A stretch of 22,704 bases of DNA from a virus, in the IMG/VR virus record IMGVR_UViG_3300025085_000208, positions 1 to 22,704 of that record. One strand, given 5' to 3'. The stretch's first letter is position 1. Each line of letters starts with the position of its first letter. Shown one piece after another: positions 1 through 18,256 of the stretch. Under the pieces are notes generated by a model, which was given only the letters and a program-made list of their open reading frames with translations, searched no databases and was not told the origin of the DNA. Made by a program: the position numbers and the translations under genes.

Positions 1-595
1 TCTAATACAGAGGTCAAAGACTAAACCTCGTAAGGTTAGATGGACTACACCTCAAGTTAAATGTTTTCTTGACACTGCGTACAGTCAATGGAGATGGCGT
101 AGCATTGGCTTGATTGTGCACATGGCATTCAACTGGGCGCAGCGTATAGGAGATATGCGTATGCTTAAGTGGACTAGCCTTGACCTTGTTAACAACACGT
201 TAGAACTAGAGCAAAGCAAACGTGGTGAGGATGTATTCTTACCTATACAAGGTGGCTTGATTGACATGTTACGCCAACAACAGAACGACTTTGGGTTTCA
301 AGATTACGTAGCACCTAGAGTAGAGCCTAGAGCAGGGGCGTACACACCCTACGATGACGATGAGATACACGTGCTAGTTAACCAAGTTAAAAGTCAGGCT
401 GGCCTACCTAAAGAGTTGACAGCTATGGACTTGAGGCGTACTGCCATTACGCAGATGGTAGAGCGTGGTGTTGATGTGGTAGGGATCATGCAAGTGAGTG
501 GTCACGCTAACCCTCAAAGCGTTAAGCCTTACTTGGTCAATACATTGGCAGGTGCTACCGAGGCATTGTCTAACAGAGAAGAGGACTTGATATAA
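1..595 (+). CDS. Tyrosine recombinase/integrase, C-terminal catalytic part (5' truncated by window edge)
   Basis: The reading frame is open from base 2, so the gene begins before the window; a TTG at 110 is not a convincing start because coding sequence continues upstream of it. The visible part (about 197 residues) is the catalytic domain of a phage integrase, which cuts and rejoins DNA through a 3'-phosphotyrosine. Visible motifs are the first-arginine region (NWAQRIGDMR, about 130-160), the second-arginine box (MDLRRTAI, from 425), the GH dipeptide (about 500-505) and the nucleophile Tyr in KPYLV (codon 530-532). The usual HxxR box reads MDLR, so its first His is replaced by Met; this box varies among phage integrases. 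It overlaps the primase start by one base (TAATG). No attachment site or repressor is visible. The family call is secure; whether it integrates is not known. Confidence 0.88.
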   Translation, partial: LIQRSKTKPRKVRWTTPQVKCFLDTAYSQWRWRSIGLIVHMAFNWAQRIGDMRMLKWTSLDLVNNTLELEQSKRGEDVFLPIQGGLIDMLRQQQNDFGFQDYVAPRVEPRAGAYTPYDDDEIHVLVNQVKSQAGLPKELTAMDLRRTAITQMVERGVDVVGIMQVSGHANPQSVKPYLVNTLAGATEALSNREEDLI

Positions 596-2754: not shown

Positions 2755-2949
2755 ATGACTGATGTGAGTAAAACAAGGAACCATGTGAAACAAGCCTTAA
2801 ATGGAATCTACAGGGCGCTAATAGAGTTACATGATGCGACAAGAGAGGTTCCTGATAAAACTCTTGATGAAGCCTTTAAGCATGTGGCCGAAAGTTTGTA
2901 TACACGTTTTCTATGTTGTGCAATCACACGTAAAGAACAGGGAGCATGA
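2755..2949 (+). CDS. Small protein, tandem paralogue copy 1, function unknown
   Basis: This 64-residue protein has a strong ribosome site (AAAAGGAG) seven bases before the ATG. Residues 1-47 are closely similar to the next gene (shared segments TDV-x-KTRN, QALN-x-IYRAL and TLDEAF), and the DNA is nearly as similar as the protein, so the duplication looks recent. The last 17 residues diverge completely after the point where copy 2 reads gtggtccgaag and this copy reads gtggccgaaag, which suggests a small frameshift replaced its C-terminus. It is mainly helical and acidic, with no known motif. No family is recognised. Confidence 0.65.
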   Translation: MTDVSKTRNHVKQALNGIYRALIELHDATREVPDKTLDEAFKHVAESLYTRFLCCAITRKEQGA

Positions 2950-2951
2950 AG

Positions 2952-3131
2952 ATGACTGATGTGGATAAAACAAGGAACGTGGAACAAGCCTTAAACGCAA
3001 TATACAGGGCGCTGTTAGAGTTATGTGACGCAGGAGATTTTACTGATGAAACTCTTGATGAAGCCTTTGAGCTTGTGGTCCGAAGCAAGGTTAAGCTAGA
3101 AAGATGGATCAGGGAGAATAATGATGATTAA
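2952..3131 (+). CDS. Small protein, tandem paralogue copy 2, function unknown
   Basis: This product has 59 residues. I choose the ATG at 2952 over the one at 2946 because it aligns with the MTDV start of copy 1 and has GGGAG at a proper distance; the ATG at 2946 has only one base between GGAG and the start. The body matches copy 1 (2755-2949), but this copy ends in KLERWIRENNDD, which continues the helical, charged character. It is probably the intact version. It overlaps the thyX start by 11 bases, so it is coupled to nucleotide-metabolism genes. Function is unknown. Confidence 0.68.
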   Translation: MTDVDKTRNVEQALNAIYRALLELCDAGDFTDETLDEAFELVVRSKVKLERWIRENNDD

Positions 3132-3804: not shown

Positions 3805-5024
3805 TGGAGCTATCTTTAATTAGAACCCTACACGATCAGGAGTTCTATGAGGATCACAAGGGTATTAAATGCCCTGACAAGTTGTTCACTAAAGATGTAC
3901 GCAAGATCAAACGTGTGTTGGACAACGCTATGGAAAAGTATGACTGTAATATATCTACTTCTGAGTTAGAGGCTTTGTTCTTCTCTGAGTATAGTACCAT
4001 GACCACAGCTAACAAGGTTCTGTATGAGGGTCTGTTTGCCAAGCTACGCAAAGAGGTTCCTATGTCTAGGGAGGTAGCCTCTGATGTACTGTCTAGGATG
4101 TTTAGGCAGCACGTAGGGGAGCAAGTAGCTAACTTAGGGTTTGACTACGTTAACGGTAAGCTTACGTCCCTTGAGCCACTACGCCAAGTGCTAGAGGCAC
4201 ATGAGGATAACTTCATGCCTAACATGAATGTTGAGTGGGCTGACATTGATATAGATACCATCTTAGAGGCTGGTACTAAACAGTCACAGTGGAAGTGGAA
4301 CATACCTAGCCTCGCCGGGCGCATAGAAGGAATTAGTAGTGGACACTTTATCATTGTGGGTGCTAGACCTAACACAGGTAAGACAAGCTTCCATGCGTCT
4401 ACTATTGCCTCGCCTAGTGGATTTGCAGAGCAGGGTGCTAAGTGTATGGTGTTGTGTAATGAGGAAGAGTATGTACGTGTAGCTGAACGCTACCTGTGCG
4501 CTGCTGCCAGTATGGATACAGACGAGATCAAGTCTAACTATGCGTTAGCTGCAGCTAGGTACAAGAAGGTACGTGATCAGATAAGTATGTTTGATAGCAC
4601 AGGTAAAGACTTAGGTTGGGTAGAGAACATCATTAAGCATAGCAAGCCCGACATAGTTGTACTTGACATGGGTGATAAGTTTGCTGTAAAGAGCAGTGAC
4701 AAGTCAGATGTGTATCTCAAAACTGCTGCTATTCATGCGCGTAATATAGCTAAGAAGTATAATTGCGCTATCATATGGATGAGTCAGTTGTCTGCTGATG
4801 CACAAGATAAAGTTTACTTAGATCAATCTATGTTAGAGGGAAGTAAGACAGGCAAGGCAGCAGAGGCAGACCTGATGTTGTTGATTGCTAAGAACCAAGT
4901 TACTGAGGGTGATGACGATGACAACCAGCGACACATCAATGTAGCTAAGAACAAATTAAAAGGTGGATGGCATGGGGTTGTCCATTGTGAGTTAGATGGG
5001 GGCAGGTCACAGTACCTAGCCTAA
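3801..5024 (+). CDS. Replicative DNA helicase (DnaB/T7 gp4 helicase-like)
   Basis: This protein of 407 residues has a RecA-type ATPase core and should form a hexamer that unwinds the phage fork. Walker A is ARPNTGKT (188-195, Lys194). Walker B is PDIVVLDMGD, and a sensor strand IIWMSQLS follows. The C-terminus has the SKTGKAAEADLML stretch seen in phage gp4/DnaB helicases near the arginine finger and loop. The first 170 residues hold helical segments without primase motifs, so this is a helicase only; the primase is at 595-1368. The next ATG (3804) could also be the start. The gene lies directly upstream of the DNA polymerase with a 13-base gap containing GAAAGGA. Confidence 0.9.
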   Translation: MMELSLIRTLHDQEFYEDHKGIKCPDKLFTKDVRKIKRVLDNAMEKYDCNISTSELEALFFSEYSTMTTANKVLYEGLFAKLRKEVPMSREVASDVLSRMFRQHVGEQVANLGFDYVNGKLTSLEPLRQVLEAHEDNFMPNMNVEWADIDIDTILEAGTKQSQWKWNIPSLAGRIEGISSGHFIIVGARPNTGKTSFHASTIASPSGFAEQGAKCMVLCNEEEYVRVAERYLCAAASMDTDEIKSNYALAAARYKKVRDQISMFDSTGKDLGWVENIIKHSKPDIVVLDMGDKFAVKSSDKSDVYLKTAAIHARNIAKKYNCAIIWMSQLSADAQDKVYLDQSMLEGSKTGKAAEADLMLLIAKNQVTEGDDDDNQRHINVAKNKLKGGWHGVVHCELDGGRSQYLA

Positions 5025-5037
5025 TGAAAGGAATACA

Positions 5038-7119
5038 ATGCGGTTTGTATTAGATGTTGAGAATACAACACAGAAGAGGAACAACAAGTTATTCCTAGAC
5101 CCTTGGGAGCCTGACAACTTCTTAGTTAATGTGGGTGTACGTGATGTGGATGATGGAGATGAGACACAAACGTTTGATCTTCAGCACAAGGAATACGTTG
5201 ATCAGTCAGGAATTGAAGCTAGACGTATACAGAAGATACTAGACCACACTACCTTGCTCATCATGCACAATGCACAGCATGACTTAGCTTGGCTGTGGGA
5301 GTGCGGCTTCAAATATGATGGGCCTATATGGGATACCATGTTAGCTGAGAGTATATTACTCAGAGGAAACAACCTAGAGATCACACCCAATGGTGTAGCT
5401 AAAAAGATATCTATGTCTTTAGGTAATACAGCTATCCGTAGAAATCTTGAGTTTCAAAAAGATGACACCCTAAAGAAGTACTTCAAGGACGGGTACAATA
5501 CAGATGAGATACCATTATCAGAATTGACTTTTTATCTTGAGGCTGATTGTAACACCACTGCTGAACTGTTTCACGCACAGGTTGCAGACTTTGCTGCTCC
5601 TGAGTCAGCAAGCCTTATCAAAGTGAGAGACATTACATTCAATGTATGTAAGCTACTCACCCGTATGAAGCAGACAGGTATGAAGGTAGATCGTAAGGCT
5701 CTTGATGCAGTGCGTAAAGAGTACGAAGAAGAGCGAGGTGCTATACAATCACGCTTACAGATGCAGGTACGTGAGGTTATGGGTGACACACCTGTTAACT
5801 TGAACAGTCCAGAGCAGATGTCTCAGGTAATCTTTAGTCGTAAGCCTCACTCAAAAGATGATTGGCCTAATCTGTTTGATAACTGCAAGAAGTTAAGCGA
5901 ACTAAAGGAAATAATCAATGCTAACAGTGATCTTCTGTATCGCACTGAGGCGTTCACTTGTCCCACTTGTGAAGGTAATGCAGAAACGTACAAAGTAAAG
6001 AAAGATGGGAGTAAGTATGCAAGACCCAACAAATGTAAGGACTGTGATGCCAGAGGATATCAACTTAAGAAGCAGTCTCGTATGGCTGGATTTGGGTTCT
6101 TCCCTCCTAATGCTTCTTGGGTTAGTGCTAGTGGCTTCTCTACAGGAAAAGACGTACTAGATATTCTTAGGGCAACAGCGATAGATAACAACATGGATGT
6201 AGCTGTTAAGTTTCTTGAAGACTTAAAAAGACTCAATGCTGTATCTAGTTACCTGTCAAGTTTTGTTGACGGTATTGAAACCTACACCAAGCCAGATGAC
6301 ATACTACATGTGTCATTAACGCAACACATTACGTCTACTGGCAGGTTCAGTGGGCGTGAGCCTAACATGCAGAACATGCCTAGAGGCGGTACGTTCCCTG
6401 TAAAACGTGTATTCATATCACGATGGGAAGGTGGAAAGGTTATGGAAGCAGACTTTGCACAGCTAGAGTTTAGGGCTGCAGCATTCTTGTCACAAGACCC
6501 TATAGCTATGGAAGAGATCAATACAGGCTTTGATGTACACTCTTACACTGCACAGATCATCACTGATGCAGGACAGCCTACAACTAGGCAAGCAGCTAAA
6601 GAACATACTTTCGCTCCTCTCTTTGGTGCGACAGGGTTCGGTAGAACTAAGGCTGAAGCTGCATACTACCATCATTTTCTTGAGAAGTACGAGGGTATAG
6701 GTAAGTGGCACAAGAAGCTAGGTAGTGAGGCTATACGACTGCAAAAGATAACTAATGTGTCAGGTAGGCAGTATGCATTTCCCGGCACACATCGCAGAGC
6801 CAATGGCACACCTACTAACTTCACTAGGATTAAGAACTATCCAGTGCAGGGGTTTGCTACTGGTGATGTTGTACCTGTTGTATTACTTGAGATAGATAAC
6901 AGGCTCAAAGGTTTACGGTCACGGCTGGTGAACAGTGTTCATGACTCAGCGGTGATAGATATACACCCACAAGAAGAGAAGGAGGTGCTAGGTGTTATTG
7001 ATGATGTTAATAAAAACCTAGATGCAATAATTAACAGATACTATGGGGTAGAAATGAATGTACCTCTACTTTTAGAAGCCAAGATAGGACCGAATTGGCT
7101 TGACACTGTTGATGTATAA
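5038..7119 (+). CDS. Family A DNA polymerase with 3'-5' exonuclease and DnaJ-type zinc-finger insertion
   Basis: This is the replicative polymerase, 693 residues. The proofreading domain is intact: Asp6-x-Glu8 (Exo I), Asp82 in NAQHD (Exo II) and Tyr166...Asp170 (Exo III). Between exonuclease and polymerase domains lies an inserted zinc-binding element with CPTCEG at 308-313 and CKDC at 333-336 followed by ARG, the CxxCxGxG-like pattern of the DnaJ central domain and a known hallmark of the HMO-2011 phage polymerase. Polymerase motif A is DFAQLE (Asp472), motif B R517-x3-K521-x3-F525-x3-F529-G and motif C HD at 635-636. The residue matching E. coli Phe762 is Phe525, and the usual motif B Tyr (E. 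coli Tyr766) is Phe529. A ribosome site (AAAGGA) precedes the ATG. The 3' end contains a promoter for the next genes. Confidence 0.95.
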   Translation: MRFVLDVENTTQKRNNKLFLDPWEPDNFLVNVGVRDVDDGDETQTFDLQHKEYVDQSGIEARRIQKILDHTTLLIMHNAQHDLAWLWECGFKYDGPIWDTMLAESILLRGNNLEITPNGVAKKISMSLGNTAIRRNLEFQKDDTLKKYFKDGYNTDEIPLSELTFYLEADCNTTAELFHAQVADFAAPESASLIKVRDITFNVCKLLTRMKQTGMKVDRKALDAVRKEYEEERGAIQSRLQMQVREVMGDTPVNLNSPEQMSQVIFSRKPHSKDDWPNLFDNCKKLSELKEIINANSDLLYRTEAFTCPTCEGNAETYKVKKDGSKYARPNKCKDCDARGYQLKKQSRMAGFGFFPPNASWVSASGFSTGKDVLDILRATAIDNNMDVAVKFLEDLKRLNAVSSYLSSFVDGIETYTKPDDILHVSLTQHITSTGRFSGREPNMQNMPRGGTFPVKRVFISRWEGGKVMEADFAQLEFRAAAFLSQDPIAMEEINTGFDVHSYTAQIITDAGQPTTRQAAKEHTFAPLFGATGFGRTKAEAAYYHHFLEKYEGIGKWHKKLGSEAIRLQKITNVSGRQYAFPGTHRRANGTPTNFTRIKNYPVQGFATGDVVPVVLLEIDNRLKGLRSRLVNSVHDSAVIDIHPQEEKEVLGVIDDVNKNLDAIINRYYGVEMNVPLLLEAKIGPNWLDTVDV

Positions 7120-7128
7120 TGGTATAAC
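7100..7128 (+). promoter_or_regulatory. Sigma70-type promoter at the 3' end of the polymerase gene
   Basis: TTGACA (7100-7105) is followed after exactly 17 bases by TATAAC (7123-7128), eleven of twelve consensus positions. A second TATAAT at 7115-7120 is too close to the -35 box to pair with it. Transcription would begin just after the polymerase stop codon and drive the gene at 7162 and the nuclease genes behind it. The call comes from consensus and position only. Confidence 0.62.
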
Positions 7129-7161
7129 TACGGTTCGTTTAAAGCTCAGAAAGGATATATA

Positions 7162-8037
7162 ATGAGCAATGAGTTGAGTACTAACTTCGCTGGATCAGAC
7201 TTGGCAGCGGCAATGGGTTTCGGAGAAATGGATACGTCTACTTCTTCTGCACCAAAGATACCAATGTTGAATCAGGTGCAAGCACCTATCATGGTTGAAC
7301 ATGTTGTCGATGACGAGGTAGAAGAGAAGGTTGTAGTACCACTTGGAGCATACAAGCTCAAAGATGGTGAAGGTAACGAGGTGTATAGTCGATCTGTATC
7401 CATCCGTTTATTTGCACAGCGGCAGCAGTGGACGCAGTTCGACACTGATATAGGTAGGTCACATAGCACAGTCATGGTTACTAAACTTAAGGGTGACTTG
7501 AAGGATAGTAGAGGTACATTTAATCTAGGCCGAGATAGTAAGTACAGGACGCCAGAAGAATGGGCTGCTTTAGATGAAGACTACAAGGCACGACAAAGTA
7601 GTGTGAAGAACTCCAAAGTACTGTTTGGTAAGGTTACACTTAACAAGCCTTTTGATGCTGAAGGTAATCCTATGCAGGGCTACGATGGTGAGATTGACTT
7701 TGTGTATTACGTTAAGAACTTCCAAAGCAAGAAGTCTATGGACGCTGCACTACAGGAGATAACCGCTAAGAAGTTGTTACCTATTGAGCATACTATCAAG
7801 CTTACATCTAAGAAAGAAAAGATGTCTACTAATAGTTACGCTACTGTGGTGGCATCACTGGGGTCTAAGGTATCTATGAAGGAAGATGATCAAGATACAC
7901 TTCGTTCTTTTGTTGACTACATAGACAACTCTAATGATTACATTCTTAGTGAGTGGAAGAAGTTGAACAAGCCTGATGTAGCTATCTCACCTGATGTGCT
8001 TGATGCTATCGTACAAGTAGAGGAGGCTCCATACTAA
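7162..8037 (+). CDS. Unknown replication-module protein, possible ssDNA-binding protein by position
   Basis: This soluble protein of 291 residues has AGAAAGGAT as its ribosome site and its own likely promoter at 7100-7128. I recognise no catalytic motif. The N-terminus is Ser/Ala-rich and probably flexible (1-35). The middle (about 55-200) is rich in alternating beta-like segments with aromatic and basic residues (SVSIRLFAQRQQWTQF, VLFGKVTLNKPF, IDFVYYVKNF). The C-terminus ends in acidic residues and an aromatic (VQVEEAPY), as single-stranded DNA-binding proteins often do. It lies between the polymerase and the exonuclease/endonuclease genes, a slot filled in related phages by an SSB or by uncharacterised proteins. 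The SSB role is inference only. Confidence 0.55.
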   Translation: MSNELSTNFAGSDLAAAMGFGEMDTSTSSAPKIPMLNQVQAPIMVEHVVDDEVEEKVVVPLGAYKLKDGEGNEVYSRSVSIRLFAQRQQWTQFDTDIGRSHSTVMVTKLKGDLKDSRGTFNLGRDSKYRTPEEWAALDEDYKARQSSVKNSKVLFGKVTLNKPFDAEGNPMQGYDGEIDFVYYVKNFQSKKSMDAALQEITAKKLLPIEHTIKLTSKKEKMSTNSYATVVASLGSKVSMKEDDQDTLRSFVDYIDNSNDYILSEWKKLNKPDVAISPDVLDAIVQVEEAPY

Positions 8038-8038
8038 T

Positions 8039-8908
8039 ATGGATATGAACCATGCTGCTGAACTTCCTATTAAGAAGTTGATGCGGGATGCTACTCTAGG
8101 CAAGTCCAGTATGTCGGAGGCAATCATTGATAAGGTTGCCTCTGATGTCAAAGAAGGCTTAGACAAGCAGTTCAACGGGGGTCCACGTGATAAGTTTAAA
8201 CTTAGAATGTCAAACATTGGACGCCCTAAATGTCAACTATGGTTTGAGAAGAATAAACCAGAGGAGAAGTCACCACTACCTGATCAGTTCATGATGAACA
8301 TGATGCTAGGTGATATAGTTGAGGCGGTATTCAAAGGTGTACTGCGTACAGCAGGAGTCAAGTTTAAAGATAATGATGTTGTGAACTTAGACTTAGGTGG
8401 TGGTAGACGCCCAATCAGAGGAGAGTATGACTTAGTTATGGAAGGCAGAGTAGATGACATAAAGTCTGCATCTGATTATTCCTACACTAAAAAGTTTGTT
8501 GACCTTGAGACACTACAGGCTAGTGACCCTTTTGGATACGTAGCACAGCTTGTAGGCTACGCTACAGCAGCAGGTAAGAAGGTTGGTGGCTGGTGGGTAG
8601 TCAACAAAGCTAACGGTCATCACAAGTACGTTTCAGCCAAGCACGTTGACGTTGAGGCTGTCTTAGATAAGATGCGTGATACCTATGACTACCTAGAGAA
8701 CGATGAGCCACTTGAGCGACAGTACACAGATGTTGCAGAGACTTACCGTAAGAAGGAGTCAGGCAATAGGATACTATGCAGAGAGTGTAGCTTCTGTTCA
8801 TTTAAGAAAGCTTGTTGGCCTGACTATCAAGAACTACCATCAAGAACCTATCAAGGTAAACTAACGCCACCTAACGTGGCATATACTAAGCTAAAGACAG
8901 ATGCCTAA
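8039..8908 (+). CDS. Cas4/RecB-like PD-(D/E)XK exonuclease with probable Fe-S cluster
   Basis: This protein of 289 residues probably degrades or processes DNA ends, the counterpart of T7 gp6 exonuclease. The nuclease core is visible: Asp131 in RGEYDLV, then Asp140-Ile-Lys142 (the D/E-x-K pair), then Gln170-x3-Tyr174 in AQLVGYA, the RecB/Cas4 QxxxY motif. Four cysteines fit the iron-sulphur staple of Cas4/AddB enzymes: Cys65 (RPKCQLWFE) and C-x2-C-x5-C at 250, 253 and 259; Cys247 is extra. AGGAGG lies 12 bases before the ATG; a second in-frame ATG at 8045 is possible. It overlaps the endonuclease I gene by eight bases. Family assignment is good; polarity and substrate cannot be told. No cas genes are nearby, so a CRISPR role is not suggested. 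Confidence 0.82.
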   Translation: MDMNHAAELPIKKLMRDATLGKSSMSEAIIDKVASDVKEGLDKQFNGGPRDKFKLRMSNIGRPKCQLWFEKNKPEEKSPLPDQFMMNMMLGDIVEAVFKGVLRTAGVKFKDNDVVNLDLGGGRRPIRGEYDLVMEGRVDDIKSASDYSYTKKFVDLETLQASDPFGYVAQLVGYATAAGKKVGGWWVVNKANGHHKYVSAKHVDVEAVLDKMRDTYDYLENDEPLERQYTDVAETYRKKESGNRILCRECSFCSFKKACWPDYQELPSRTYQGKLTPPNVAYTKLKTDA

Positions 8909-9344
8909 ACCTAAGAGGCAACACCTTAAAGCCAAGTACAGGAGTGGTCTTGAAAAACAGACTGCTCTTGTTTTGTCTGAGTGCCAGAAAAAGGTAAGGT
9001 ATGAGTTACTTAAAATAGAATGGGAGGACTTGCGTTACCGTACTTACACTCCTGACTTTCAGTTAGACAATGGTATCTTTATTGAAACTAAAGGTATCTT
9101 TGATAGTGAAGACAGGTACAAGCATATACAAGTAAGGAAGCAGCATCCTGAGTTAGACATAAGGTTTGTCTTTAGTAACTCTAAGGGTAAGCTATATAAA
9201 GGTTCCAAGACTACGTATGGTGATTGGTGCGAGAAGAATGACTTCTTATATGCTCATAGGTTGATACCAAATGAATGGTTGACATCTCCCGGCGCATGTG
9301 TTACGGCTAAAATAATACCTCTCAAAACAAAAAGGAAAGATTAA
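8901..9344 (+). CDS. T7 gp3-type endonuclease I (Holliday-junction resolvase)
   Basis: This protein of 147 residues is close in length to T7 endonuclease I (149). It resolves branched DNA and helps break down host DNA. All four metal-site residues are present at matching spacing: Glu18 (YRSGLEKQ), Asp52 (YTPDF), Glu62 and Lys64 (IETKG). The following signature IRFVFSN...KGSKTTYGDWCEK is also typical. A short basic C-terminal extension (KTKRKD) may contact DNA. It overlaps both neighbours by a few bases, so it is part of the nuclease operon behind the promoter at 7100. Confidence 0.93.
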   Translation: MPKPKRQHLKAKYRSGLEKQTALVLSECQKKVRYELLKIEWEDLRYRTYTPDFQLDNGIFIETKGIFDSEDRYKHIQVRKQHPELDIRFVFSNSKGKLYKGSKTTYGDWCEKNDFLYAHRLIPNEWLTSPGACVTAKIIPLKTKRKD

Positions 9345-9679
9345 TGTCTAGTGATATAGGTGAGGGTGAAGTTGCGATATTGATAAAGCCTCTAGGAGAT
9401 GGGCGCATAGAGACTTGTATATACAAATCGCCCGATAACTACTTGGATGATGACGCCTTAGAGATAGCTCTTGATGTAGCATTAACTATGAATGCTTTGT
9501 TTGAGTTAGCACTAGATGAGGAGTCTGATCTTTTAGAGGGTCTAAAGGCTAGGGTTGAGTCCAAGATACAAGAGATTATGAATGATTCAATGGAGAGAGA
9601 ACAAGAGAAGCCAATCTATACTTCAGATGGTAATATCTTAAAGATAAACAGGTTCACGAAAACAAAGGGTAGCTGCTAA
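9344..9679 (+). CDS. Small acidic protein, function unknown
   Basis: This 111-residue protein overlaps the endonuclease stop by one base (TAATG). The first 30 residues look like a beta hairpin (VAILIKPLGDGRIETCIY), followed by a long acidic helical region (about 35-90). There are no catalytic motifs, cysteine clusters or membrane segments. I recognise no family. Its position between a nuclease and a DUF3310 gene is typical of small phage early or middle genes. Confidence 0.65.
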   Translation: MSSDIGEGEVAILIKPLGDGRIETCIYKSPDNYLDDDALEIALDVALTMNALFELALDEESDLLEGLKARVESKIQEIMNDSMEREQEKPIYTSDGNILKINRFTKTKGSC

Positions 9680-9680
9680 C

Positions 9681-9920
9681 ATGGCTAAGTGGAAAGAAGT
9701 AGACACGGATATGGTAAATAGCCCACCTCACTACGGCACAGGGTCTATAGAGTGTATAGAGTACATAGAAGACTTTCTAACTGATGAAGAGTATATAGGA
9801 TACCTAAGAGGTAACATAGCTAAGTACCTACACAGGTGGCGATACAAGAACGGTATAGAGGACTTGAAGAAAGCTGAGTGGTATGGTGCTAGACTAATAG
9901 CAAAGGTAGAGAAACAATGA
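9681..9920 (+). CDS. DUF3310 (SaV-like) protein
   Basis: This 79-residue protein has the full DUF3310 pattern: VNSPPHYGTGSIECIEYIED, then LRGNIAKYLHRWRYKNG and EDLKKAEWYGARL. The family is widespread in phages next to nucleotide-metabolism and replication genes. It is often described as a nucleotide-kinase-like or accessory protein, but no activity is firmly established. The gene follows the previous stop after one base with AGGGTAG as ribosome site, and its TGA overlaps the next ATG (ATGA). Confidence 0.85.
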   Translation: MAKWKEVDTDMVNSPPHYGTGSIECIEYIEDFLTDEEYIGYLRGNIAKYLHRWRYKNGIEDLKKAEWYGARLIAKVEKQ

Positions 9921-10090
9921 AGACTAGAAAGTTTAGTGCTACGTTTGTTCTTGAGGTAGATAAAGAAAACAATATACTATCTTCTCATGATGTACACCAC
10001 AATGAAGATATCAGGGACTTGCTTGAGAACTTAGTCTTTGATATAGATGACGTTACCATATACAACATTAACGTGAGGGAACACGGATGA
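9917..10090 (+). CDS. Small protein of 57 residues, function unknown
   Basis: The ATG at 9917 overlaps the DUF3310 stop, and the TGA at 10088-10090 overlaps the MazG-like gene start. It fills the gap exactly with ATGA couplings on both sides, which argues that it is a real gene. The product alternates beta-like and helical stretches (RKFSATFVLEVD, then RDLLENLVFDIDDVTIYNINV), resembling small alpha/beta phage proteins. No family is recognised. Confidence 0.7.
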   Translation: MKTRKFSATFVLEVDKENNILSSHDVHHNEDIRDLLENLVFDIDDVTIYNINVREHG

Positions 10091-10515
10091 TTACACAACA
10101 AGAAATAGATGACTTCGCTGAGTACGACAGAGAGGATATGATTAATAACCTCAAAGACTGTACACCTCTTGATATGGTCAAAGAGTTTGCTACAGCAATG
10201 GATCACCCACTTGGAGAAAAGTACGGCTACAGTAGAAAGCTAGAGGGTCTGCGTTGGTTACTTCTCAAAGAAGAGTACAATGAAGTTCGTGATGCAGATG
10301 GGCCACAGGAACTACTTAAAGAGTTAGCTGACTTGGTGTACGTTACGTATGGCTATGCAGCTACTTATGGGTGGGACTTAGACGAAGCTTTCCGTAGGGT
10401 ACACGCATCTAATATGTCTAAGCTAGGCCCAAGAGGTAAGCCACTTAAACGCCCTGATGGTAAAGTGTTAAAAGGTTCAAACTACTGGAAACCTGACCTG
10501 TCTGACTTAGTATAA
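10087..10515 (+). CDS. MazG-like nucleoside triphosphate pyrophosphohydrolase
   Basis: This 142-residue protein belongs to the all-alpha NTP pyrophosphatase superfamily (MazG/dUTPase/PRA-PH fold), which hydrolyses (d)NTPs to (d)NMPs. The metal-binding pattern is complete: Glu62-Glu63-x2-Glu66 (KEEYNEV) and Glu79-x2-Asp82 (KELADLV). It is followed by the typical ending HASNMSKLG...GKVLKGSNYWKPDL seen in phage members. GAGGGA lies eight bases before the ATG. It sits immediately upstream of the ribonucleotide reductase and in the same arm as thyX. Likely roles are trimming dUTP/dCTP or damaged nucleotides, or altering nucleotide signalling; the exact substrate cannot be read from the sequence. 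Confidence 0.87.
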   Translation: MITQQEIDDFAEYDREDMINNLKDCTPLDMVKEFATAMDHPLGEKYGYSRKLEGLRWLLLKEEYNEVRDADGPQELLKELADLVYVTYGYAATYGWDLDEAFRRVHASNMSKLGPRGKPLKRPDGKVLKGSNYWKPDLSDLV

Positions 10516-10526
10516 GGAAATAAAGT

Positions 10527-12428
10527 ATGAATAACAATTATCTACCAAGTGACTACCAAACCTTTATTGCAACCAGCCGCTATGCACGTTGGATTGAAGG
10601 CGAAGGACGCCGTGAAACATGGGGTGAAACTGTAGAGCGTTACTTGCAGAACATAGCTAAGACATGGCTCAAGCCTGTTGACCTAGATGAAATGCGTGAT
10701 GCCATACTTAGCCTTGAGGTTATGCCTAGTATGCGGTCACTTATGACTGCAGGAAAAGCGGCAGACAGGGATAATACCTGTATGTATAACTGTAGCTATC
10801 TACCCGTAGATGATCCTAAGTCTTTCGATGAGGCGATGTTCATCCTCCTTTGCGGGACGGGGGTTGGTTTCAGTGTTGAGCGTCAATTCATCACTAAACT
10901 CCCTGATGTTCCGCCTCTTTTCGATAGCGAAACGTGCGTTGTCATCAAGGACAGCAAGGAAGGATGGGCTAAGGGTTTGAGACAAGTTCTGGCACTCCTA
11001 TGGGCTGGTGAAATTCCTAAGTGGGATGTATCCAAAGTTAGACCTGCAGGTGCAAGGCTAAAAACTTTTGGTGGTAGGGCTAGTGGTCCTGCTCCTCTAG
11101 TTGATTTGTTTAACTTTGCGGTCACAACATTCAAGGGTGCACAGGGCCGTAGACTATCTAGCCTTGAGTGCCACGACCTCATGTGTAAGATTGGTGAGGT
11201 GGTAGTGGTAGGTGGTGTAAGACGTAGTGCTATGATCAGTCTGTCTAATCTGTCTGATGATCGTATGCGTCACGCCAAGTCAGGTAACTGGTGGGAGAAT
11301 GCAGGGCATAGAGCCTTGGCTAATAACTCGGTATCTTATTCAGAGAAACCAGACAGCATGGCATTCATGCGTGAATGGACTGCACTAATGGAGAGTGGTA
11401 GTGGAGAACGAGGAATATTCAACAGAGAAGCATCAGTTAAACAAGCTGCAAAAAATGGCCGTAGGGAGTCTTGCTATGAGTTCGGAACTAACCCATGTTC
11501 GGAAATCATTCTTAGGCCGAATCAGTTCTGTAATCTTACGGAAGTTGTCATCCGTGCTAACGATAGTCTGGAAGACCTTACAAGAAAAGTCCGTCTTGCA
11601 ACTGTACTTGGAACCATTCAGTCAACATACACTAAGTTCCCCTACTTGCGAAAGGTGTGGGCTACCAACACAGAAGCAGAACGCTTGCTCGGTGTGTCAC
11701 TCACAGGGATAATGGATAACAAATTAATGACTACGGCTAATGCTGGCCTAGCTGATACATTGGAGCATCTTAAAAATGTGGCTGTTTCTACTAACGCTGA
11801 GTGGGCTGACCGTCTTGGTATCCCTCATAGCACTGCTATTACTTGTGTCAAGCCCAGTGGAACAGTTTCCCAACTGGTTGACTCATCTTCTGGCATTCAT
11901 GCTCGTCACTCTCCCTATTATATCCGTACTGTGCGTGGAGATAATAAAGACCCATTGACAGAGTTTATGAAAACACAAGGCATCCCTAATGAACCTGACG
12001 TTATGAAGCCTGATGCTACCACAGTGTTTAGTTTCCCTATGCAGTCTCCTATGGGTGCTGTTCATACTGCTGATATGACAGCACTAGAGCAGTTAGAGAT
12101 GTGGCTGATGTATCAACGGCATTGGTGTGAGCATAAGCCTAGTGTAACAATTAATGTCAAAGCTGATGAGTGGTTTGAGGTAGGGGCATTCGTGTACAAA
12201 CACTTTGATGAAATGTCAGGTGTGTCATTCCTACCCTTCAATGAACATACGTATCAACAGGCTCCCTATCAAGAGTGTACACAGGAAGAGTTCTATAATA
12301 TGGTTGACAAGTCTCCTGTTAAAATTGATTGGACTAAACTAGCAGAACTAGAACATGCAGACAACACAAGCGGTATGCAGACTATGGCGTGTACTGGTGA
12401 TGTCTGTGAAATGGTAGATATAACCTAG
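10527..12428 (+). CDS. nrdJ: Adenosylcobalamin-dependent class II ribonucleotide reductase, monomeric type
   Basis: This enzyme of 633 residues converts ribonucleotides to deoxyribonucleotides using coenzyme B12. The active-site residues of the Lactobacillus leichmannii-type triphosphate reductase align with correct spacing: Cys89 (NCSY, equivalent to C119), Cys324-Ser-Glu326 in NPCSEI (C408/E410) and Cys335 (C419). The C-terminal redox pair is C-x4-C in MACTGDVCEM, eight residues from the end. It is shorter than the bacterial enzyme (about 739), so part of the allosteric insertion is probably missing. No small subunit gene or beta-type metal site is near, as expected for class II. A ribosome site (AAGGAA) precedes the ATG. 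It makes phage DNA synthesis depend on host cobalamin. Confidence 0.93.
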   Translation: MNNNYLPSDYQTFIATSRYARWIEGEGRRETWGETVERYLQNIAKTWLKPVDLDEMRDAILSLEVMPSMRSLMTAGKAADRDNTCMYNCSYLPVDDPKSFDEAMFILLCGTGVGFSVERQFITKLPDVPPLFDSETCVVIKDSKEGWAKGLRQVLALLWAGEIPKWDVSKVRPAGARLKTFGGRASGPAPLVDLFNFAVTTFKGAQGRRLSSLECHDLMCKIGEVVVVGGVRRSAMISLSNLSDDRMRHAKSGNWWENAGHRALANNSVSYSEKPDSMAFMREWTALMESGSGERGIFNREASVKQAAKNGRRESCYEFGTNPCSEIILRPNQFCNLTEVVIRANDSLEDLTRKVRLATVLGTIQSTYTKFPYLRKVWATNTEAERLLGVSLTGIMDNKLMTTANAGLADTLEHLKNVAVSTNAEWADRLGIPHSTAITCVKPSGTVSQLVDSSSGIHARHSPYYIRTVRGDNKDPLTEFMKTQGIPNEPDVMKPDATTVFSFPMQSPMGAVHTADMTALEQLEMWLMYQRHWCEHKPSVTINVKADEWFEVGAFVYKHFDEMSGVSFLPFNEHTYQQAPYQECTQEEFYNMVDKSPVKIDWTKLAELEHADNTSGMQTMACTGDVCEMVDIT

Positions 12429-12732: not shown

Positions 12733-12936
12733 ATGCAGTTAGAAGAAGAAGCTCTTAACTACAGTAAAGGTAAAGATGAATCTTTTAAAGAGAAGGTAAC
12801 AGAGATGTGTGAAACTATGGAGAACCTTATTGTCTCTAACTTACACCCTTGTCATGAACGTAAGATGGTTGAGCAGCATATTCGTGAAGTGTATCTTTGG
12901 GCTAGGTATTGTGTAGAGTTACACGGTACAAAGTAA
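12733..12936 (+). CDS. Small helical protein with own promoter; weak resemblance to Acb2/DUF7681-type anti-CBASS proteins
   Basis: This 67-residue, mostly helical protein is preceded by AGGGTAGGTGG as ribosome site and by a likely promoter at 12672-12700. Its second half, HPCHERKMVEQHIREVYLWA continuing to ...ELHG, has the order Pro-x2-Glu...hydrophobic-x-Glu-x3-Trp-Ala...His. I associate that order with the last helix of the small cyclic-nucleotide-sponge family Acb2/DUF7681 (PSRE...L-x-E-A-x-MWA). This comes from memory of the motif, not a search, and the protein is shorter than the known ones. It is followed after one base by a parS-like site and then a terminator, so it looks like an independently expressed accessory (moron-type) gene. 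A link between the protein and parS is possible but not shown. Confidence 0.6.
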   Translation: MQLEEEALNYSKGKDESFKEKVTEMCETMENLIVSNLHPCHERKMVEQHIREVYLWARYCVELHGTK

Positions 12937-12937
12937 A

Positions 12938-12953
12938 TGTTTCACGTGAAACA
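12938..12953. promoter_or_regulatory. Perfect 16-bp parS-like site (ParB-binding centromere sequence)
   Basis: The sequence TGTTTCACGTGAAACA is a perfect inverted repeat and identical to the consensus chromosomal parS site bound by ParB in bacteria, including alphaproteobacteria. It is intergenic, one base after the stop of the 67-codon gene and eight bases before the terminator stem. No parA or parB gene is in the window, so a host ParB would be the binder. It is the only such site here; other CACGTG hexamers in the window lack the flanks. Confidence 0.85.
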
Positions 12954-12961
12954 AAGTAAGA

Positions 12962-12992
12962 GGGGCAGTCGCTATGACCGCCCCTTTTTTTT
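12962..12992 (+). terminator. Rho-independent terminator at the convergent junction
   Basis: A GC-rich stem GGGGCAGTC / GACCGCCCC (one A-C mismatch) with a five-base loop GCTAT is followed by eight T residues. It ends plus-strand transcription from the left arm and from the 12672 promoter. On the minus strand the hairpin is followed only by a broken T stretch (TCTTACTTTG), so it may act weakly in that direction, where the 1194-residue gene ends six bases away. Confidence 0.9.
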
Positions 12993-12997
12993 GTATT

Positions 12998-15900
12998 CTA
13001 TGTAGCGTACTTGACTTGCAGTCGTTGTTCTTTTTTGTTGGTATCTAATTCGTATCTAAGAAAGTTTAACTGGTCCTCGTCTAAGTCTGTAACGTCACCA
13101 TCTATACCCATATCTTGTAAAGCTTCTCTTATTTCTTTGTCAGAGTAGCCACCATTACGTTTAGTTAAGTCATACATAATACCCATTCTTCTATTCTCAG
13201 GGTCAATGCTATACTTTAGCTCCAACATTGCAGACTCTTTAGCCCTTGAAAGTATAACTCCACGTAGTAGCTTTAATCTCATAGTGTTGTCAGCCTCTTT
13301 CCAAGTAGGGCTATCCAGCATCTTAGCTGCCTCATCGTTAAGATACTTAGTTATTACTTTCTTCATTCTGTTGTCAGCTTCAGGTATCTTGGCTGAAACA
13401 TTAGACTTCCACAGAGGTAGGCCCACCATAGCAAATGCTCTCTCAACAGGTGTGTGAGAAGCTGACTCACGGTATCCAAATATCCTACCTATGGGTGCAC
13501 CCTGTTGTATATCAGTCTCAAGACGCTGCGCTTCTACAGGACGAGGTGCATCAATAGCACCGAATGTACCCTTAGTGACAACTTCTTGTGCTGAGTACCC
13601 CTCAAGTCCTGTGATCTCTTCAAAGGCATCAAAGATACCCTCAACATAGCGCACAGAATTGTTGACAGTCTTATTGCCTATCTTACGATCCGTAGGAGTA
13701 TAGCCTTCACCTGCCACAAGGTTTCCTATTTGACTTATAGGATCAAGTGGACGGGTGTAGCCAGACGCATACATGGATACAGTGTTACCACCCAACTCTT
13801 GTAAGGCTTCGCCTACTGCTGGCATATCACCTGACAGAGCATCTATTATTATGTCCATAGAAATCTTAGATGTATCTCCTAGTTGGCGTGTTAAGTTTTG
13901 AGGCCCAAAGGTATTTATAATCTCTTGTATTAACTCAGGTGGAGCTTCACCATCACGATCAAAGTGTGCCTTAAGTCTACCTATACCCATGTAGAAACTA
14001 AACGGGAAGTCATACAAACGTGACTTAACTGAGCCATCATCTGCTCGGACTTCATGCCACTCCAAGCCCTCTTCTAGGCCAGCCTTAGAGTGTTCACCTG
14101 CTGTGTTAAGAATAGTTAAACCTACAGCAGTCTTACTTATAAGTTCTACAGGATCACGTGTAGTACCTGCTGCATACTTGTGAAGCAAACTAATACCTGT
14201 GTGATCAAACATGAACCCCATAGTGTTATTAAAGAATTGACCAAAGGGGATCATAGCACCAAGTATAGGAACCCTACGTGCTTCTTCTATTCCTTTAGCT
14301 ACATAACCTAGTAGACCCTTAGCATCTTTACCATAGGACTTAGCAAATACATTTCTAAGAGAATCATCAACAGCTTTAGTTTGTAACTCAAAGAAGTCTG
14401 CACCTGACATCTGATCCCAGTATTTAGGAGTACCGTCTGCATTAGCAGCACTCATGAACTCAGAGTAACTGACACCGTGCTTGATACGTATCTGCTTATC
14501 AATGTTGTACATAAACTCTTGGGTCTTGGTAAATATATCTTGTGCCTTAACTCCATAAAGAGTTTGCATACCAGACATAACCTTTTCAAAAGTGCCTTCT
14601 TTCTCCATGTCACTGAAGTCTAGCTTCAGGTCTTTCATTACATCATTACTATCAATGCCACCAGACATATATCTAAACAGTTCTTTACCTATCTTAGGAT
14701 TGTAAGCTAAGAAATCTAGTACCTCTTCCTGTGTAGCAAAAGGGTCTACTAAGTTCTTTATCTTCTGGCTTTGCAAAGTAAGCATACTCTTAGCTCTCTT
14801 AGCGTACTCTACAGAGCTACCTATCCTGCCAACAAGTAAGTTACCTACGGATGCACCTCCATACAAAGCACCTCGCACCATGTCAGAACCTGACTGCATG
14901 ACGGATGCATTAGACCAACCCACTACGTTTAACGCAGTAGTGCCGGGATGAGTAACAAGCATACGAATAAGGTTGGCTTGTGCTTTAGAAAACCCTGTGT
15001 CTAGTCTGTCTTGCAAGCCCTTTACAAACACAGGTGACTGAGGATCAAGCTCTGCTTCAAGTACATCATTACCTGTAGGAGGACCAGTAAGCCCTGCCTT
15101 CTTGCGCCTCTTTGCAGCCTCTTTAATAGAGTTCTTAGACTTACTTAATTGATACAGGGTTCTACCTGCCTCAGATGCAGTCCTTGCAAGTATATCCATG
15201 CCCTCATCTAAGTCTTTAGCCTTAGCAAACATAGGATGCTCTGCTTTAAGGGTCAGATCAAAGATGTCTTTTATGTCTTTCTTTACATCACCGTCCAAGT
15301 CTTTTACTATAGATGTGAGAAAGTCTGTGTAATGTACAAAGGCATCATCAGCGTACTCTAATTTAAATCCTGCACCCTCAAGTATTTGTATTAGTCCTTC
15401 TGTACCTGTTGATTCATCACCACTTAAAAAGAAACCTAAAGTATCCGCTGCAATGTCACCTGTCTGAGTGCCACTAGATGCAGCCGTACCTGCACGTACC
15501 TTTGCTAACCATGCCTCTGTACTGTCTTTTGTTTTGCCTAAGCTTTCTTTAATAGCTCTCTTAGCTGCAGCATCTGACTTCAAATTGTCAGCTACTGCTT
15601 TGTTACGGCCCTTCTCAATATCAATAGCTCTTTTTCTAGCAGCCGCTTCAGCTTGCTTCACTCTTTCAAACGCAGGTAAGGCTAGTTCTTTAGGGGCATT
15701 GCCTTTAGATATACTTGCTAAACTGTATGCAAGCACACCACCAAACAAACCTCCTGCAGCAGTTAACCCGTATGCTAACTCATCTCTCTCCTGTTGGAAG
15801 TCTGTCTTCATTAGTGCGTTCTGGTAAAAGCCTTCTACTGTGAGTGCAGCAGCAGTATCACCAAAGGCAGCACCTACACCAAACTTACGTCTTTCTTTCT

Positions 15901-16582
15901 TGAGTGCAGCATCTACTGCACCCTCTTCTACACCCTCTATGGCATCACCACGCATGGCTTTACGCATGATCTTACGCCTTATAAGACCTATCTGTTCTTT
16001 CTCTAGCTCTGAAAGTCCTGCACGTTTAACGCCTTCTTTACCTATCTTCTTTAAGTAACTGTTAGTTGCAATCTCAACTCCCTTCTGAGTTGCTTTAGAT
16101 GCAGCCTTAGTAGCACCACCAGATATAAGCTTGCCTACACCTAGACCAATAACGTTAACAGGGTCTAACACAATACCACGTGCGTAGTCACCTACAGCGT
16201 CTAGCTTCTCTGCTGTAGTAGAACCTCCACTGAAAGCACCCTTCATGTTTTCAAATAGTCTGTAGGAGTTGTTAGCTACAGCCATAGACTCCTCGTCTGC
16301 TTTGTACAAGTAAGCAGCCTCACCTAGCACTGTAGTAGATTGCCCTACGTTAAACTTACGATTATAGTTTACCCATGCATCAACTACTTCTTGTCTGTCA
16401 TGTGTCTTCTCTGACATGCCAAACCTACGCTTCATCTGTTCATCAATAATGTTGTAGTTGTGATCTTCAGTTAAATCATTTACAGAAAAAGAATCCTTCT
16501 CCCCACCTGAGTAGGTAAGGAAGTCACGCTCTTCTTCTACTTGTGTTTCATCAGGACCATATAGCTCTTCTAGTGTAGGCAT
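12998..16582 (-). CDS. Large internal virion (ejection) protein, T7 gp16-like by size and context
   Basis: This is the largest gene of the window, 1194 residues and last in the minus-strand block. Long helical and Ala/Lys/Glu-rich stretches dominate (about 280-360). There are a few Gly/Ala-rich hydrophobic segments (near 145-160, LTAAGGLFGGVLAYSLASI near 270-290, and VGWSNASV...GALYGGASVGNLLVGRIG near 550-590) that could enter a membrane during ejection. No enzymatic motif is seen; the peptidoglycan-cleaving activity carried by the T7 gp16 N-terminus is here a separate gene (18839-19732). It likely forms part of the channel through which DNA enters the cell. A GAGAG-like ribosome site precedes the ATG. 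The internal virion call rests on size, composition and neighbours. Confidence 0.7.
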   Translation of the reverse strand: MPTLEELYGPDETQVEEERDFLTYSGGEKDSFSVNDLTEDHNYNIIDEQMKRRFGMSEKTHDRQEVVDAWVNYNRKFNVGQSTTVLGEAAYLYKADEESMAVANNSYRLFENMKGAFSGGSTTAEKLDAVGDYARGIVLDPVNVIGLGVGKLISGGATKAASKATQKGVEIATNSYLKKIGKEGVKRAGLSELEKEQIGLIRRKIMRKAMRGDAIEGVEEGAVDAALKKERRKFGVGAAFGDTAAALTVEGFYQNALMKTDFQQERDELAYGLTAAGGLFGGVLAYSLASISKGNAPKELALPAFERVKQAEAAARKRAIDIEKGRNKAVADNLKSDAAAKRAIKESLGKTKDSTEAWLAKVRAGTAASSGTQTGDIAADTLGFFLSGDESTGTEGLIQILEGAGFKLEYADDAFVHYTDFLTSIVKDLDGDVKKDIKDIFDLTLKAEHPMFAKAKDLDEGMDILARTASEAGRTLYQLSKSKNSIKEAAKRRKKAGLTGPPTGNDVLEAELDPQSPVFVKGLQDRLDTGFSKAQANLIRMLVTHPGTTALNVVGWSNASVMQSGSDMVRGALYGGASVGNLLVGRIGSSVEYAKRAKSMLTLQSQKIKNLVDPFATQEEVLDFLAYNPKIGKELFRYMSGGIDSNDVMKDLKLDFSDMEKEGTFEKVMSGMQTLYGVKAQDIFTKTQEFMYNIDKQIRIKHGVSYSEFMSAANADGTPKYWDQMSGADFFELQTKAVDDSLRNVFAKSYGKDAKGLLGYVAKGIEEARRVPILGAMIPFGQFFNNTMGFMFDHTGISLLHKYAAGTTRDPVELISKTAVGLTILNTAGEHSKAGLEEGLEWHEVRADDGSVKSRLYDFPFSFYMGIGRLKAHFDRDGEAPPELIQEIINTFGPQNLTRQLGDTSKISMDIIIDALSGDMPAVGEALQELGGNTVSMYASGYTRPLDPISQIGNLVAGEGYTPTDRKIGNKTVNNSVRYVEGIFDAFEEITGLEGYSAQEVVTKGTFGAIDAPRPVEAQRLETDIQQGAPIGRIFGYRESASHTPVERAFAMVGLPLWKSNVSAKIPEADNRMKKVITKYLNDEAAKMLDSPTWKEADNTMRLKLLRGVILSRAKESAMLELKYSIDPENRRMGIMYDLTKRNGGYSDKEIREALQDMGIDGDVTDLDEDQLNFLRYELDTNKKEQRLQVKYAT

Positions 16583-16597: not shown

Positions 16598-18256
16598 TTA
16601 TTGTTCGCTTGCTTCACGCCGTTCTTGAATGGACGCCATAGCAGCAGCCATTTTTGCGAGTGCTTTTTCTTTTTGTTCAATAGATAACTCTTCTAGCCAA
16701 GCTGCGTTGCCATTACTTTGTTCAGCAGAAACTCCAAATAGACCTTGGATAAATGCTGTTGTATTTGCAGCACCACTAAAAATGTAACTTGCAAACCAGT
16801 TGTCCAGACTAACAATGGTAGGCTCTGCACTATACCATGCGTCTGCTAGGTTATTTGCTATTGTTAGACCTGCTTCGTTAGCAGTTAAATCAGTTATAGC
16901 TTTTTCAATAACGGGTTTATTTACTTTTATCTCTTCATAGGAGTCTAGTACAAATTGTTTATAACCTGCATCTCCCTCTGGTGTAGATGGGTACAGTTCA
17001 CGATCACGTGCTAGACGTATATCAGGCATACCTTCTGGTGGTTCAGCCGCATCTGCTGTAGTCTGATCGGTAGGGGTTATGGCATCAGCATCACCTAGCT
17101 CAACAGGCTTCAGGTCAATCTCAGTAGGTATGGCATCTGAAGGCATTTCATAAGGTACAACATTACCGTTATATATTAAATACTCTGCATCGGGGTTAGC
17201 AGCAAACCATTCTCTAGCGGCTGCTTTGTTTGCAGGTCCGTTTAGTACTTCAAGCTTACCTATATCGTCTGGGCTTAATCCGTATGCTGCACCCTGCTCA
17301 ACAAGCCTTATAGTTTTTTCCTCTTCTGTTTCAGGTGTAATATCTATACCTTGAAGAGTTGACAACAACAAGTTGTTACCTTCAATACCGTACTGACCGT
17401 AAAGCCCTTGCATTACTTCTGCAACTTTTTCAGGATTATTAGCTATTGCATATGCAACCTTCTCAGAGGCAGTTGCTACATCATAAGTTCCTCTACCCAT
17501 ACCGTCCATAAAGTATTGACTTCCTATGGCACTCACAATCTTAGTTTCATACATTGATTTGTAGGCACGTTGCTCTGTAATGTTTAGCTTACCTGCATCA
17601 GGATCAGCCAAAGCACTTCTATTAAACGTAGGTAAGCCCTTAGAAGCTGGCATACCCATGCCTTCCATAGCTAAGATATCATTGTAAGAGTAACCTGCTA
17701 TTGAAGGTGTAGTTCTGCTGGCCTCATAACGTGCCTTAGCTTGCCCACCACCTGAAAACATATCACCTAAGCTTGCAAGGAATCCTCTATCCTCTGCATC
17801 AGAGGCTGCATCACCTGCATCTGTGTCAGCTTTAGCTACTTCAACTAAGAACTGGTCTTTCAAAGCTTGATCTATATCGTAACCCTCTTGTTTAACGTAG
17901 TCTTCAGACCCTTTATATACTTCATTCAAGTCTAATGTAGCACCATCATACTGAGTTTCAAACTGCTCTTGTAGTTTTCTTAATGCGCTTACGCCTTGAT
18001 AACCATACTTACTAACTAGCTCTTCAGCAGACTTAGGGTTAAGACCACCTGCCTCTAATGCATCAAGCATTTCAATAGCAGAGTCAGCCATAGCTGTTCT
18101 ATCATTTACAGTCTTACGACCAAAGCGCATCATGTAATCTTCTTGCTTAGTCATGAGGTCACGATAGTAATCGTTTTTCTTCTCAACGTTTTCTACGTAC
18201 TGGTCTGCTGCCCCTGCTGCCAATGCTCCAAAATCAATACTACTAAAAAGTCCCAT
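16598..18256 (-). CDS. Probable virion/internal core protein, function unknown (T7 gp15-like position)
   Basis: This protein of 552 residues is acidic and mainly helical. The N-terminus (MGLFSSIDFGALAAGAADQY) is followed by a helical, coiled-coil-like region to about 150. A Gly/Ser-rich linker (GDMFSGGGQ) lies near 165-175, and an acidic Pro/Thr/Asp-rich region near 390-430 separates the C-terminal helical part. There are no catalytic motifs. It lies between a small unknown gene (gap of four bases) and the 1194-residue protein (gap of 15 bases), the slot of T7 gp15. The virion role is inferred from gene order. Confidence 0.62.
   Translation of the reverse strand: MGLFSSIDFGALAAGAADQYVENVEKKNDYYRDLMTKQEDYMMRFGRKTVNDRTAMADSAIEMLDALEAGGLNPKSAEELVSKYGYQGVSALRKLQEQFETQYDGATLDLNEVYKGSEDYVKQEGYDIDQALKDQFLVEVAKADTDAGDAASDAEDRGFLASLGDMFSGGGQAKARYEASRTTPSIAGYSYNDILAMEGMGMPASKGLPTFNRSALADPDAGKLNITEQRAYKSMYETKIVSAIGSQYFMDGMGRGTYDVATASEKVAYAIANNPEKVAEVMQGLYGQYGIEGNNLLLSTLQGIDITPETEEEKTIRLVEQGAAYGLSPDDIGKLEVLNGPANKAAAREWFAANPDAEYLIYNGNVVPYEMPSDAIPTEIDLKPVELGDADAITPTDQTTADAAEPPEGMPDIRLARDRELYPSTPEGDAGYKQFVLDSYEEIKVNKPVIEKAITDLTANEAGLTIANNLADAWYSAEPTIVSLDNWFASYIFSGAANTTAFIQGLFGVSAEQSNGNAAWLEELSIEQKEKALAKMAAAMASIQERREASEQ

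Follow-up and report, generated by a model that had tools for sequence, protein, structure and literature searches.

The junction and its surroundings

The stretch of DNA analysed here, referred to as the window, comprises the 22,704 nucleotides of virus record IMGVR_UViG_3300025085_000208. Two gene arms converge within it. The replication and RNR arm, on the + strand, carries genes for an integrase, primase, ThyX, helicase, DNA polymerase, exonuclease, endonuclease I, a MazG-like protein and a class II ribonucleotide reductase (RNR). It begins with the C-terminal part of a tyrosine integrase (2..595, + strand), truncated by the contig end, and its last large gene encodes the class II (adenosylcobalamin-dependent) RNR (10527..12428, + strand). 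This is followed by a conserved 67-aa ORF of unknown function (12733..12936, + strand). The structural arm runs towards it on the - strand and contributes a 1194-aa protein (12998..16582, - strand).

Where the arms meet, there is a perfect 16-bp palindrome, TGTTTCACGTGAAACA (12938..12953, assigned to neither strand), which is identical at 16/16 positions to the chromosomal parS consensus of the ParABS system, TGTTNCACGTGAAACA (PMC7022226). The stop codon of the 67-aa ORF lies 1 bp before the palindrome. An intrinsic terminator with a GC-rich stem and a T-run, recognised from its sequence and fold (-23.9 kcal/mol, z -5.2), begins 7 bp past the palindrome's end (12961..12992, no strand assigned) and probably serves both strands. 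A first-pass annotation, made from the letters alone, had described a full parS match in an intergenic place, between a gene end and a terminator at the meeting point of the arms, and each of these elements was recovered. It had also put the chance of such a match at about 5 in a million, in agreement with the 5.6e-6 exact copies expected under the window's own first-order Markov (dinucleotide) model. No second copy within 2 mismatches was detected in the window; the next-best match, at 17327, has 3 mismatches and is inside a coding gene.

Both DNA and protein matches place the window among the HMO-2011-type podophages (CRP-1, 2, 9, 207, 345, 603 and HMO-2011), and its RNR gene shares 70.7-72.3% nucleotide identity with those of CRP-1 and CRP-345. 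It meets the membership test for this group, which is the order of integrase, primase, helicase, DnaJ-domain PolA and RNR together with a converging structural arm, and the gene order at the junction is identical in HMO-2011-type isolates. Judged by its sequence, the window is thus an HMO-2011-type podophage related to roseophages. Distant homologues of the 67-aa ORF (30-31% aa identity) adjoin the same junction in CRP-2, CRP-207 and CRP-603, and no parS was found beside them there.

Searches for the host of the parS-bearing clade did not identify one. An integrase profile run against 84,980 species genomes yielded no confirmed relative, and a search with the large terminase subunit (TerL) matched solely phage contigs binned into MAGs of unrelated phyla. 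Consequently, no host is claimed beyond the relationship to roseophages. HMO-2011-type contigs of the same lengths and names (62,825 and 55,371 bp; L310-L313, L317 and L318) occur in two MAGs whose assigned phyla differ (Flavobacteriales TMED123 and Neomarinimicrobiota MED589), and at least one of these bins must therefore be contaminated.

Conservation of the site

Relatives of the phage were gathered via the neighbouring 1194-aa protein, and hence independently of parS. The exact 16-mer is present at the same junction in 27 of the 29 readable loci, is absent from two (L142 and L154), and is degenerate in none, even though the proteins are often merely 39-47% identical. Its position is fixed, never having shifted among the relatives' junctions, and the terminator is kept in most of them. 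Across an alignment of 20 distinct junction sequences, all 16 positions of the site are invariant, compared with 10% of third codon positions in the adjoining ORF, where third positions are nearly saturated with changes (pairwise identity mean 0.59, minimum 0.32). Downstream of the site, 3 of 45 columns are invariant. As exact sites were used to cut this alignment, the figure free of that bias is the 27/29, with none degenerate. The test for a site kept by selection (invariance against a 10% third-position background, with 27 exact, two absent and none degenerate) is met. The first-pass annotation had suggested deliberate retention, to be refuted by absence or degeneration in close relatives; that refuting case was checked, and the suggestion survives the same 27 of 29.

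The site is dispensable for HMO-2011-type phages in general, since none of the cultured isolates tested has an exact or one-mismatch copy. No parS within 2 mismatches occurs in CRP-1, 2, 9, 207, 345, HMO-2011, HTVC033P, CRP-3, 212, 235 or 738, and CRP-603 has a single 2-mismatch copy away from the junction. A simple link between parS and integrase or lysogeny was considered and rejected, as the integrase is found in relatives both with and without the site.

Several sites per genome in one TerL clade

The relative G002 (57,846 bp) can be regarded as complete because it has a 112-bp terminal direct repeat. It contains three exact parS sites: one at 48059, equivalent to the window junction; one at 17064, inside TerL; and an intergenic one at 10394, which is upstream of an early gene in a non-convergent location. 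The probability of at least three exact sites in this genome is about 1e-15. The TerL site, GTTTCACGTGAAAC, translates as VSRET (NVSRET in G002), and another relative, L212, combines a TerL site with two more exact sites.

Of 80 relatives compared by TerL, the site in this gene is present in the nine closest, exactly or altered at its first base to AGTTTCACGTGAAACA; the remaining 71 have none within 2 mismatches. In a TerL tree built from a subset of relatives, the carriers, including G002, form one clade (support 100/99), and all 10 of its members keep the site. The sister lineage G003/L218 has the homologous TerL linker without parS. The junction site is also missing from G003, so that one lineage lacks both. 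Among these relatives, the presence of parS at several loci is clade-specific.

Absence of phage-encoded ParA and ParB

Profiles for ParB_N (PF02195) and ParA-type proteins (PF13614) found nothing in the window, G001, G002, G005, G006 or G009, and the HTH_ParB profile (PF17762) found nothing in the complete G002. The earlier claim that the window encodes no ParA or ParB is therefore borne out and extends to a complete relative, and the criteria for a self-contained phage ParABS cassette fail for both proteins. More broadly, none of 132 parS-bearing virus records exceeded the PF17762 cut-off; the Butyrivibrio virus Arian gave one weak, sub-threshold match. An exact parS without a protein to read it suggests that the phage probably borrows the segregation machinery of its host.

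Distribution of parS across viruses

The exact 16-mer occurs in at least 120 viral-contig stretches, compared with 3 and 9 for control palindromes, an enrichment of at least 13- to 40-fold. It is also present in 315 annotated phage records, where a control palindrome has none. Carriers include phages of Listeria, Microbacterium, Arthrobacter, Gordonia, Bacillus, Lactobacillus and Ruegeria, as well as microviruses (including Spiroplasma phage 4) and an inovirus. Of 146 viral sites, 64 are not within an ORF, where 13.1 would be expected; for control sites, the figure is 0 of 12. These record counts are redundant and include some unannotated fragments, such as the 'Listeria phage LM' series. Among the 'viral' records with parS, some may in fact be pieces of host DNA, and two contigs with dense parS clusters (L017 and L044) could be host origin regions. 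No literature survey of parS in phages was found, with bioRxiv and most subscription papers outside the coverage.

Two carriers are well suited to further work. The inovirus L301 (PQ006097.1) has six exact sites within 6,183 bp (704, 740, 3041, 3583, 4380 and 5921), the densest arrangement seen. Inoviruses often persist in dividing cells, which makes it a good model for a partition role. The cultured Ruegeria phage DSS3P8 (L298, KT870145.1) has three exact sites (841, 141133 and 143177), which cluster in a stretch of about 6 kb spanning the start of its circular record, and offers a tractable alphaproteobacterial test system. Strictly lytic phages, such as the Listeria P100-like ones, are also among the carriers; with such phages, partition fits less well than titration or positioning.

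The parS variant carried tends to follow the host. A GC form, TGTTCCACGTGGAACA, serves as parS in P. aeruginosa and P. putida (PMC7022226, PMC5098823). It is found in 58 phage records (control, 1), in which Pseudomonas phages are commonest (17/58). Klebsiella phages account for another 10 and are mostly large, related ones with the site within a coding gene; these are taken here to be chance occurrences within one lineage. Chromosomes of Enterobacteriaceae are missing par genes (PMC7022226), and no enterobacterial phage is among the matches listed for the TTTC form. First-word groups of that form beyond the ten named each account for at most 6 of its 315 records. This wider host-linked pattern, observed across unrelated phages, makes host ParB the likely reader of the phage sites, although there are no binding data.

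Proposed role of the phage sites

It is established that ParB, on binding parS, closes into a CTP clamp and then spreads (PMC12704722). The most likely role of the phage site is to load host ParB onto phage DNA, with the binding itself being inferred. On this view, the site is a genuine parS of the chromosomal type, carried by a phage without its own ParB. Once the phage DNA has entered the cell and circularised, dimers of host ParB-CTP would load at the junction, and at one to three additional sites elsewhere in the genome, and the clamps would slide outwards. DNA coated in this way would become a client of the host ParA machinery, and possibly of MipZ and SMC too. The most likely benefit would be that unintegrated phage DNA is positioned and inherited with the host chromosome during a slow, deferred or carrier-state infection. 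The ParA interaction and the segregation benefit are, like ParB binding, inferences. Taken as a whole, from genuine site through host ParB loading to host-linked positioning or inheritance, this explanation is held with moderate confidence. Among the possible benefits, partition or positioning ranks first, titration of ParB second, and an effect on architecture or expression third, and these are not firmly separated.

Titration would mean that multicopy phage parS soaks up host ParB, disturbing segregation, the placement of MipZ and FtsZ, and division, and thereby keeping the cell undivided while it is infected. ParB-parS governs MipZ and FtsZ in Alphaproteobacteria (PMC6315104), and parS copies on the mobile element SGI1 destabilise its helper plasmid (PMC10954446). 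Several sites per genome, multiplied by replication, and the occurrence of parS in strictly lytic phages are also in keeping with this idea. However, one to four sites per genome would make a poor sponge without a high copy number, and whereas a decoy could lie anywhere, the junction site is always in the same place. Titration is regarded as unlikely. That ParB clamps, together with the SMC they load, condense the phage genome or act as a barrier where transcription of the two arms converges is more doubtful again. SMC is recruited by ParB at parS (PMC10197239), viral sites are over-represented between genes, and the window's site is exactly at the arm meeting point beside a terminator; but neither of the other G002 sites, one in the TerL interior and one preceding an early gene, is at a convergent junction, and isolates without parS manage with the terminator alone.

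Two further explanations dispense with ParB altogether. Palindromic operators beside gene ends are common in phages, and no experiment excludes a phage-encoded regulator whose target shares the parS sequence by coincidence. Such a regulator is nevertheless very improbable, given that the same exact 16-mer is shared by tailed phages, microviruses and an inovirus whose gene contents are unrelated, that the variant follows the host parS type, and that control palindromes of like composition give merely 0 to 9 matches. Pure chance, or selection on a hairpin in the transcript, can be practically discounted. A 6-bp RNA hairpin can form at the site, but it is weak (-4.7 kcal/mol, z -0.78), and there are no compensatory changes because no position of the 16-mer changes at all; both the chance expectation and the exact retention at 27 of 29 junctions tell against accident. 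An Rfam search at the site returned no match, and an RNA element was rejected as a candidate.

Loading of host ParB therefore remains the preferred reading. In its broader form, it is quite probable that phages with no relationship to one another, dsDNA and ssDNA alike, have taken up the parS variant of their hosts, without ParB, to recruit host ParB-CTP clamps, a widespread convergent strategy in which the marine clade has fixed several sites.

Relation to known systems

The membership test for a ParB-less phage with parS, of which the Bacillus phage phi29 is the type, is met by the marine phage. Both lack ParB and have several parS sites, those of phi29 being four one-mismatch TGTTTCACGTGGAACA sites. 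Entrapment of the phi29 chromosome in spores by host Spo0J, a ParB homologue, has been reported (PMC9437464, citing Meijer et al. 2005). phi29 is small and lytic, has linear DNA replicated by protein priming, and enters spores via Spo0J. In contrast, the marine phage is an integrase-bearing podophage of ~57 kb, presumably with non-sporulating marine Alphaproteobacteria as hosts. SGI1 is likewise a mobile element with parS mimics and no ParB of its own, which exploits the ParABS of another replicon: its mimics bind IncC ParB, stabilising SGI1 (PMC10954446). Unlike the marine phage, it is not a virus and uses a plasmid system, whereas the phage has the host chromosome's own site. Chromosomal ParABS uses the same 16-bp sequence, while the phage copy is on a virus, away from oriC and the parAB genes. 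DNA of phage-plasmids (P1-like elements and extrachromosomal mycobacterial prophages, PMC7157519) is also partitioned by ParABS, but these encode ParA and ParB with their own cognate sites, and the marine phage has neither gene.

In view of the phi29 and SGI1 precedents, the kind of system is already known. The first-pass reading was right about the identity of the site and the lack of phage ParA and ParB, and implied more novelty than these precedents allow. The literature covered contains no description of the marine clade, of the multiple sites fixed in it or of how widely parS is spread among virus groups. If host ParB reads these sites, the segregation machinery would be a common phage target or vehicle well beyond the phi29 sporulation case, and ParB-CTP biology, cell-cycle control and phage life cycles would become linked. 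The parS variant would also provide a sequence-based clue to the hosts of uncultured viruses. These ideas would be directly testable in cultured phages (Ruegeria DSS3P8, B103-like phages of Bacillus, and Gordonia or Arthrobacter phages).

Other features of the phage genomes

Between small early genes, G002 (L168) has nine copies of a palindromic 32-nt element with the core TTAGTGTCGGATTGTCCGACGTTAA (4083-9999), which look like a repeated phage operator or promoter; the element is absent from the window fragment. A 149-aa segment of a Na+/Pi-cotransporter (PF02690) is encoded in the window at 2257-2706, with a G002 counterpart at 838-1269 and no match in the compared isolates, and is possibly a host-derived phosphate gene. 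Adjacent short ORFs of similar sequence (MTDVSKTRNHVKQALNGIYRAL / MTDVDKTRNVEQALNAIYRAL) at window positions 2755-3131 appear to be a probable tandem duplication. The replication arm also encodes, at 1600-2145, a T5orf172/MUG113 (GIY-YIG-like) protein with an N-terminal Cys-rich motif.
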